Shown here: piece by piece, positions 1,337 through 5,098 of the stretch
Numbering within the stretch: position 1 is the first letter of the stretch
How the letters are laid out: every line of letters begins with the position of its first letter
Source: a bacterium
Lineage (GTDB): Bacteria > Patescibacteriota > Minisyncoccia > Phycocordibacterales > Zambryskibacteraceae
NCBI GenBank assembly: GCA_023266935.1
Contig: JAHFOF010000001.1
Span: 103,830-148,912 of the forward strand
DNA: 45,083 nucleotides
Direction of reading: 5' to 3'
The notes under the pieces: model-generated
Databases searched by the model: none
What the model was told of the DNA's origin: nothing
Seen by the model: the letters and a program-made list of their open reading frames with translations, nothing else
Program-made: the position numbers and the translations under genes

Positions 1337-1378
1337 AGTTGATAAGTTGGTTAGTTAGAAAGTTTATAAGTTAGAAAG
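1337..1378 (+). repeat. Tandem AGTTNNNN octamer array (left copy)
   Basis: AGTTGATA AGTTGGTT AGTTAGAA AGTTTATA AGTTAGAA AG in strict 8-bp register. Confidence 0.85.
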
Positions 1379-1388
1379 GCAAAATTTA

Positions 1389-1925
1389 ATGATTGAAATA
1401 ATCTTTGAAGCTCACGGAACCACTTATGACAATGAAGCCAAACTACCTTCTGGACATAATGATGTAGAGTTATCACCCTTGGGCATACAACAATCTAAGG
1501 AAATGGGTGAAAGATACAAAAACGATTATTTCGATGCAATTTTTTGTTCAGATCTTCAAAGAGCTTATAAAAGCGCAGAAATTGGATTTAAAAATAAGTG
1601 GCCGATTATAAGAGACGCACGATTAAGAGAATGTAATTATGGTGAATACACCCAAAACCCGAGTGTGTGGAGAGAAGACGAAAAGATTCATAGAATAAAG
1701 GAGTCATTTCCAAAAGGCGAATCCTATATCCAAACAACGGCGAGAATGAGGGGTTTTCTTGAAGACTTAATCAAGAATTATGAAGGGAAAAAAGTAATGA
1801 TTATTGGGCATAGGGCAACTCAATATGGGCTAGAGAATCTTGTTAATAAAGTTCCTTTAGAACAAATAATTTCTGCCCCATGGAAATGGCAACCAGGATG
1901 GAAATATAATTTTGAGAAACTTTAA
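1389..1925 (+). CDS. Histidine phosphatase (phosphoglycerate mutase-like) family protein
   Basis: FEAHGTT.DNE, FDAIFCSDLQRAYKSAE, LRECNYGEYTQ, VMIIGHRATQ. Confidence 0.85.
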   Translation: MIEIIFEAHGTTYDNEAKLPSGHNDVELSPLGIQQSKEMGERYKNDYFDAIFCSDLQRAYKSAEIGFKNKWPIIRDARLRECNYGEYTQNPSVWREDEKIHRIKESFPKGESYIQTTARMRGFLEDLIKNYEGKKVMIIGHRATQYGLENLVNKVPLEQIISAPWKWQPGWKYNFEKL

Positions 1926-1931
1926 AAATTT

Positions 1932-2300
1932 ATGACCACTGGGCTAGAAAATTTGAAAGTTTATCAAATGACCGAAGCTTTGGAAGTAGAGGTTTATAAG
2001 ATTCTAAAAGAATTTCCTAAAGAAGAAATCTATGGGAGTGTTGATCAGATAAAAAGATCTTCATCCTCAGTTTCAAATAATATTGCGGAGGGTTATGGAA
2101 GATATAGCTTTGCTGAGAAAATTCGTTATATGTATATAGCAAAAGGGGAAGCCGAAGAAACAAAGAGAAATATTATCCGCTCGAGTAAAAAGGGATTATT
2201 GTCGGTTAATGTTGCAAATAAGCTCTCTGATATGTATACTGACCTTCTAAAAGCAATAAGTGGTTATATTAGATTTCTAAAGGATAAATCAACGAAATAA
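1932..2300 (+). CDS. Four helix bundle protein (23S rRNA intervening-sequence / S23 family)
   Basis: LKVYQ..EALEVEVYKILKEFPKEE.YGSVDQIKRSSSSVSNNIAEGYGRYS pattern of the S23 family. Confidence 0.88.
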   Translation: MTTGLENLKVYQMTEALEVEVYKILKEFPKEEIYGSVDQIKRSSSSVSNNIAEGYGRYSFAEKIRYMYIAKGEAEETKRNIIRSSKKGLLSVNVANKLSDMYTDLLKAISGYIRFLKDKSTK

Positions 2301-2307
2301 CGAATCA

Positions 2308-2345
2308 AACTTAGCAACTTATTAACTTTCCAACTTCTTAACTAT
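2308..2345 (-). repeat. Tandem AGTTNNNN octamer array (right copy, inverted)
   Basis: Reverse complement reads AGTTAAGA AGTTGGAA AGTTAATA AGTTGCTA AGTT in strict 8-bp register. Confidence 0.85.
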
Positions 2346-4452: not shown

Positions 4453-4531
4453 ATAAAGGAATAGAGTTCTTTACTATTCATCCCGCCTCGGGTGAGAGGA
4501 TTCAATGGGTAATGGAGCCCAAGGAGAAACA

Positions 4532-5098
4532 ATGGCTTGGATGACTCAGGATTGGACGATGGGGCAGTTGAACGCTCTCGTCAAGAAGATCGGCGAGAAG
4601 AACGCCCATGCGATTCTCGGAGACAAGGTGAAGTTTTCGATCGTGTTTGAGACGGTTGCTTCAACCCTCCTCACCCTTCTCCGCACGGTGAGGATGCCTG
4701 CCCAACCGGCAGTCACCACCTCGAAGCAGTATTTTGCAGAAGCTGGGGCCAAGTGGTTCGGGAACAATTTTGAGAGCCAGTTCCTTGGCCTCGAAGTTCC
4801 CGTCACCGATGTGGCCGAGCTTGCTGTAAGGAAGCTCGAGCAGTCGTCACTCGATGCTCCCATCCTCACCGAGCTGGGGGACAAGGCGGAAACATCGGTA
4901 TCCCAATTCAAGCAGTTCCTTGCGGACAACCGCGGGAGCACCGAGTGGTTCATCTTTTACCTTCGTGGTAAGGATGGTCGACTCTGGGCTGTGTCGGCGA
5001 GCTGGGTCGCCGACGGCGGCGGTTGGTACTTGGGCGCGCGCTCCGTCGAGAGTCCGGGCAGGGGGGGTGCGGGCGACCGGGTGGTTTCTCGCAACTGA
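4532..5098 (+). CDS. Small GC-rich hypothetical protein (family A paralog, ends ..GDRVVSRN)
   Basis: AAGGAG upstream of ATG 4532; own promoter and terminator; C-terminal half similar to the CDS at 1..438. Confidence 0.8.
   Translation: MAWMTQDWTMGQLNALVKKIGEKNAHAILGDKVKFSIVFETVASTLLTLLRTVRMPAQPAVTTSKQYFAEAGAKWFGNNFESQFLGLEVPVTDVAELAVRKLEQSSLDAPILTELGDKAETSVSQFKQFLADNRGSTEWFIFYLRGKDGRLWAVSASWVADGGGWYLGARSVESPGRGGAGDRVVSRN

Follow-up and report, generated by a model that had tools for sequence, protein, structure and literature searches.

Genes of the IVP/S23 family are usually annotated simply as 'four helix bundle protein'. A known setting of the family is the 23S rRNA intervening sequence (IVS) of Leptospira and Coxiella, in which a single ORF lies between inverted, stem-forming repeats; its presence is patchy and it has been suspected of being selfish or mobile (PMC4990558). 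In Coxiella, a 28-bp terminal stem surrounds the S23 ORF and is cut by RNase III (PMC4990558). The elements described here share the protein family, the inverted stem-forming repeats and the patchy presence, but they lie in mRNA operons and plasmids, their arms are lineage-specific arrays with a period of 7-9 bp, a few cases show target duplication, and some elements carry cargo.

STRR-type heptamers have long been known in cyanobacteria, and we know of no accepted explanation for their origin. Such heptamer repeats, including TAACTGA of Beggiatoaceae, have been discussed as 7-bp-period, intergenic and often operonic sequences of Cyanobacteria and Bacteroidetes (PMC4679880). The arrays reported here are of the same sequence type; however, descriptions of the STRR and TAACTGA repeats attach neither a gene nor a mechanism to the arrays, whereas here such arrays form inverted pairs around IVP genes. 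The period at the locus studied is 8 bp rather than 7, while most of its cyanobacterial relatives have 7.

Three further systems are close in one respect or another. Avd of DGRs forms a ring and acts together with a reverse transcriptase; the structure model of the IVP studied here matches it (4dwl), as well as the Avd chains in reverse transcriptase complexes of DGRs, with TM up to 0.88, at a sequence identity of 6-8%. Unlike a DGR, the element has no reverse transcriptase, template repeat or variable repeat, and no reverse transcriptase is found among its flanking genes. Similarly, MITEs and REPIN-RAYT systems are short inverted-repeat elements with gene-less copies beside a gene-bearing one, but no RAYT or DDE transposase is present here and the ends, rather than being fixed sequences, are multi-unit arrays with variable spacers. 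The 11-subunit RNA-binding ring TRAP is comparable by analogy only, as a ring protein whose subunits each take one short motif, the motifs being evenly spaced; its fold and subunit number are unrelated, and binding by IVP is putative. No publication linking IVP genes with tandem arrays was found in a literature search that left out most subscription journals.

The stretch of DNA analysed here (the window; 45,083 nucleotides) has the gene order secE-nusG-[left array, histidine phosphatase, IVP, right array]-rplK, with the following features around the cassette:

784 to 1329, + strand: nusG, the left host gene (PF02357/TIGR00922)
1294 to 1335, no strand: 15-bp perfect inverted repeat linking the 3' end of nusG with the bases immediately before the left array (GTCGAATTAGATTTT...AAAATCTAATTCGAC), from reading the sequence
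1337 to 1372, + strand: left arm, five AGTT in 8-bp register with spacers GATA, GGTT, AGAA and TATA, from sequence and pattern count
1389 to 1925, + strand: cargo, histidine phosphatase superfamily, branch 1 (PF00300, E 7.1e-30)
1932 to 2300, + strand: core, IVP/S23 four-helix-bundle protein of the 'TGLENL' subfamily (PF05635, E 1.5e-29; TIGR02436)
2308 to 2343, - strand: right arm, five inverted AGTT in 8-bp register with spacers AAGA, GGAA, AATA and GCTA, from sequence and pattern count
2351 to 2773, + strand: rplK, the right host gene (PF00298/TIGR01632)

The arm unit is the octamer AGTTNNNN, and on the + strand the AGTT of the left arm start at 1337, 1345, 1353, 1361 and 1369. Three-unit matches to the array pattern number six in the window against 0.02 expected from shuffled sequence; across the whole 543,574-bp genome they are confined to the two window arms, and a reversed-pattern control over the same genome gave zero. 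The window IVP is also the only PF05635 gene of the genome. The 15-bp inverted repeat at the end of nusG folds with -16.9 kcal/mol. Between the arms lie the IVP gene and the cargo, with no recombinase, nuclease, transposase or reverse transcriptase, and the insertion site in the window has no visible target duplication. The element sits in nusG-rplK and not inside a 23S rRNA gene, and rRNA was looked for near 20 other IVP loci and not found.

An earlier note on this DNA had placed five octamers at 1337-1378 on the left and four octamers plus AGTT on the right; the strict 8-bp register and the inversion hold, while the left array ends at 1372 and each arm has five AGTT. That note had further described a two-gene cassette between the arrays. 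Both genes are indeed enclosed, but the histidine phosphatase is a passenger and does not belong to the core. In this protein EAHGTT replaces the family motif RHGxT, so the arginine of the catalytic motif is missing, and the second histidine is retained (GHRAT). In other elements the place of the cargo is taken by a NUDIX-like gene (L123) or an unknown ORF (L176), or cargo is missing altogether.

Elsewhere in the window, the stretches 109-438 and 4505-5098 are GC-rich (55-60% vs 33-42% around them, in 500-bp windows), and their ORFs have C-termini that look alike (..HRVVVRN and ..DRVVSRN). A GC-rich fragment resembling them lies in the nusG-rplK spacer of one relative (G021, L179). These stretches may represent another type of inserted cassette.

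Insertions of this kind are present in some and absent from other close relatives. The gap between nusG and rplK measures only 21-53 bp in each of the eight congeners, with no array and neither cassette gene. Among the 99 nearest genomes, those with an IVP gene of the window's subfamily at nusG^rplK are G000, G022, G027 and G028. The last three belong to one sister genus, nine members of which have an empty spacer of 18-53 bp; the precise empty site that the earlier note had proposed to seek in close relatives is therefore found in both genera. The left junction TCTAATTCGACTAGTT is identical in the window and in the three sister-genus loci (L176, L177 and L178 of G022, G027 and G028), where the inverted repeat formed by the nusG 3' end and TCTAATTCGACTAGTT has a base change on both sides with pairing preserved. 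Given this common junction, and pairing kept despite the changes, the elements of the window, G022, G027 and G028 probably go back to a single insertion, and the remaining relatives would have either lost that nusG^rplK insertion or never carried one. A junction similar to that of the window at TCTAATTCGACTAGTT is also seen in L103.

Within the window clade (L111, L112, L117 and the window, grouped at 99/97 on the IVP tree) vertical inheritance fits. As the sole explanation of occupancy at nusG^rplK it was rejected, with L114/L116, L203/L210 and L202 placed in other clades. Two junctions, nusG^rplK and pheS^pheT, recur in the subfamily, and the three site groups require 11 changes on the tree against a minimum of 2. 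The nusG-rplK spacers of three other relatives (G023, G013 and G053; L180, L183 and L184) contain different small ORFs, by eye one GxxExxY-like and two GIY-YIG-like, the latter two seemingly between inverted repeats (CCCCGCCCTCACT.. / CCCGTGAAATAA..). It may be that small cassettes of several kinds share nusG^rplK as a hot spot.

The subfamily of the window IVP is sharply bounded, with the N-terminus (M)xTGLENLxxY. A scan of the collection gave about 30 members at E<=1e-17, followed by a gap to ordinary IVPs; the hosts are mainly Patescibacteria, with some Bacteroidota and Chlorobiota, and the viral contigs searched contained no relative. Strict inverted AGTTNNNN arrays surround more than half of these members, and in the remainder AGTT/AACT recur as arrays of a different spacing (9 bp in L103, L111, L112 and L117, mixed in Bacteroidota). 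The adjacency of array and four-helix gene, which the earlier note had suggested looking for in other genomes, consequently extends across phyla, nearly all subfamily IVPs being bracketed by inverted AGTT arrays of strict or variant spacing, compared with an AGTT motif at about 2 of 49 ordinary IVPs. Five more loci, L202-L205 and L210, came from another sample, 384 genomes of the class; inspection shows periodic inverted arms in four of the five, and only weakly so in L202. Successive AGTT are spaced by 8 bp in 122 of 195 cases, then most often by 9 and by 7.

Arrays also bracket ordinary IVP genes, with other motifs. At 121 IVP loci the upstream flank was aligned to the reverse complement of the downstream flank, and 219 ORFs from those same loci served as controls. 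Once duplicates were removed, 71% of the subfamily and 63% of ordinary IVPs had an own-pair inverted-repeat score of at least 31, against 2.3% of control ORFs (p about 1e-21 and about 1e-30 against controls, respectively), and the own partner scored better than 100 random partners in 40%, 53% and 2.3%. Flanks were periodic (score >=11) in 57% of both IVP groups and 11% of controls, with periods of 7, 8 and 9 for IVPs and a spread for control ORFs. An arm has a median of 4.7 units. Motifs of ordinary IVPs include GAATNNN, TAGCTTN, GTATTNN and GTTAATN (7 bp), GTAATTAA (8 bp) and AGCTTNNNN (9 bp). Moreover, the motif follows the IVP lineage: the more alike two IVPs are in sequence, the more alike are the arms of their elements (Mantel r 0.36, against at most 0.06 in 999 permutations). 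This association may not reflect binding, because an element inherited as a unit could produce it.

These comparisons bear on a passive origin, in which the arrays would be expanded simple sequence or hairpin terminators, accumulating in the spacers beside a gene type that prefers spacers of that sort. Such an origin would accommodate the solo arrays described below, some of which lie within genes, but it is very improbable when control genes at the same loci reach 2.3% against 63-71%, when reversed-pattern controls, in relatives as well, are near zero, and when the arms are inverted and element-specific and the empty sites have no arrays.

On cyanobacterial plasmids, the inverted arms match each other better than 60 random partners at 14 of 16 IVP loci, and most arms are built of heptamers, GTAGGGA, AACAGGG, AGGTGAC, GGGTGTA, TCAGGAG and TTAGCTT being examples of the units. 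Several of these elements interrupt operons, and three lie inside CRISPR operons (L215, L220 and L221; cas6^cas4 twice and cas10^cmr3), and the corresponding junctions of relatives have no IVP. For the element of Trichormus variabilis plasmid C, six plasmids with flanks 98-99% identical lack it; in the two of these six that were compared, the empty site TTAAAAAGTAATTAACAAAT corresponds to ...GTAAT-element-GTAAT..., an exact 5-bp duplication. A related element at another site, in Nostoc sp. ATCC 53789 pNsp_a, has TTCTA on both flanks and its empty relative has it once, and in a third full/empty case four of five bases are duplicated (TAATG/TTATG). Further pairs (L219, L221, L222, L226, L216 and L220) were too diverged at the junction for a duplication to be read. 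A blind scan for 5-mer duplications at inverted-repeat ends gave no excess (23% vs 21%), and the claim of a 5-bp target duplication thus rests on these few full/empty pairs. At the Trichormus site, L233 has kept the left arm and 40 residues of IVP, and L236, at the same site as the full element L219, has both arms and no IVP; both appear to be visible relics, that is, decayed copies of the element. The earlier note had read the array boundaries as termini of an element, either mobile or domesticated; that view is supported by clean plasmid insertions with target duplication, by the empty sites and by the cross-phylum link of array and protein.

AGTT arrays also occur without a subfamily IVP, in at least ten relatives. 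Some are (+)(short loop)(-) hairpins between operon genes (groES^groEL, mraZ^rsmH and rpsQ^rplN, named by eye), and others are single and sometimes within genes. The idea that an AGTT array always means an IVP was rejected on this ground, ordinary IVPs also having other motifs. The earlier note had held that arrays common without the gene would speak against its reading; solo hairpins, relics and in-gene arrays do exist, and the link between arrays and the subfamily IVP across 99 genomes is still positive, though incomplete (4/6 vs 11/93, p 0.004). Array pairs and hairpins without IVP fit relic or miniature elements, while single in-gene arrays fall outside that reading. As a separate observation, AGTTNNNN arrays lie inside coding frames in L082 (2451-2486), L083 (6767-6802), L085 (4020-4047) and L087 (10977-11004). 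The frames resemble RNA methyltransferase, RecJ and RecR, the arrays are apparently tolerated, and the methyltransferase-frame array is seen in two genomes (G017 and G025).

Solo arrays that directly precede the starts of genes, in operons like the three named above, could instead be the regulon of IVP as a host RNA-binding regulator, with the arrays at its own gene being autoregulatory in the manner of TRAP and nothing moving. The left arm ends near the IVP start at many loci, and a motif that follows the protein lineage would be expected of such a regulator as well. We consider this unlikely. An inverted second array past the stop codon is superfluous for autoregulation, congeners lack the gene and both arrays jointly, ten relatives have arrays without the subfamily IVP, and insertions at precise sites are polymorphic between relatives, with 5-bp duplications.

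As RNA, the window arms would pair with -32.4 kcal/mol. Own arms pair better than swapped ones both in the subfamily (-54.5 vs -45.0 kcal/mol) and in ordinary IVPs (-51.5 vs -39.9 kcal/mol), and the spacers are more complementary in own than in swapped arms (0.68 vs 0.48). Insertions are intergenic and nearly always in sense with the host operon: where the neighbours agree in strand, 90 IVPs are sense and 1 antisense, a bias near that of ordinary operon genes (284:19). In four cyanobacterial plasmid loci (L216, L217, L224 and L230) the annotation has the IVP on the strand opposite to both neighbours. With respect to host transcription, the element acts as a passenger.

Better pairing of own arms, the sense bias and the Coxiella precedent of a 28-bp stem cut by RNase III would all suit an mRNA intervening sequence that is excised by RNase III and spreads by recombination of its flanks, with no transposition. 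A plain stem, however, requires neither arrays with a period of 7-9 nor motifs that track the protein; exact 5-bp target duplications indicate insertion at a staggered cut, and several IVP lineages occupy the same sites. The chance that excision and flank recombination account for the data is accordingly small in our estimation. The data are best read as a transposon-like element akin to the 23S rRNA intervening sequence.

The window IVP scores 102.7 bits against PF05635 (curated cut-off 33.8) and 95.8 bits against TIGR02436 (curated cut-off 24). Its structure model has four helices at pLDDT 95, and the best structural matches of the monomer are 2gsc (TM up to 0.94, 0.9 A) and also 2rld, each of which has five chains. 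The structure 2gsc is cited as five four-helix bundles (Lin et al. 2006, in PMC10053308). The IVP is under purifying selection, dN/dS between IVPs being 0.05-0.14 where dS could be estimated, and therefore it works for the element or for the host. To our knowledge, the fold has no catalytic site. Reverse transcriptase genes are present in 6/6 genomes with a subfamily IVP against 43/93 others (p 0.012, kinship ignored) and in 30/48 IVP genomes against 19/51 without (p 0.010, kinship ignored), and a reverse transcriptase acting in trans is a weak lead. The genome of the window has two such genes (C2:28263 and C11:13455), both away from the element. In six relatives (G021, G031, G048, G053, G057 and G098), reverse transcriptase genes have weak PF05635 matches at a distance of about 1 kb or less; these matches are probably Avd genes of DGRs, in which case PF05635 counts in Patescibacteria mix Avd with IVP.

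Taken together, the cassette probably belongs to a family of small mobile elements, each built around a single IVP gene flanked by inverted short-tandem-repeat arrays. The earlier note had named the four-helix protein as a candidate DNA- or RNA-binding factor. Like its solved homologues, IVP would assemble five four-helix bundles into a ring, and this ring would bind an arm with one subunit per repeat, probably as single-stranded RNA or DNA. One subunit per repeat is suggested by the match between a five-membered ring and about five repeats per arm, and a single-stranded target by a period of 7-9 bp that differs from the DNA turn. The ring might then join both ends of the element, and an enzyme supplied in trans, such as a resident reverse transcriptase or a host recombinase, would make the staggered cut in the target. 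The arms would base-pair within the mRNA, and the resulting stem would, like that of 23S rRNA intervening sequences, keep damage to the operon low; any cargo between the left arm and IVP would travel along. Members of this element family may also have landed in 23S rRNA genes, the IVS being one special case.

A wider claim, to which we give tentative and somewhat less than even credence, is that IVP genes mark a distinct and very widespread class of transposable elements. Their array ends would be read repeat by repeat by an Avd-related five-subunit ring, with an RNA or single-stranded DNA step carried out by a reverse transcriptase in trans or a host enzyme, and decayed copies would be a main source of cyanobacterial STRR heptamers and of similar arrays in Bacteroidota and Patescibacteria. 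What is likely new here is the scale, at which a family annotated by its fold is seen as an array-ended mobile element, related to the rRNA IVS and a probable source of STRRs. If true, this would be a mobile element that has array ends and lacks a recombinase of its own, and it would explain the repeated interruption of nusG^rplK and pheS^pheT in Patescibacteria. It would also join two puzzles, the function of IVP/S23 genes and the origin of the cyanobacterial STRR heptamers.
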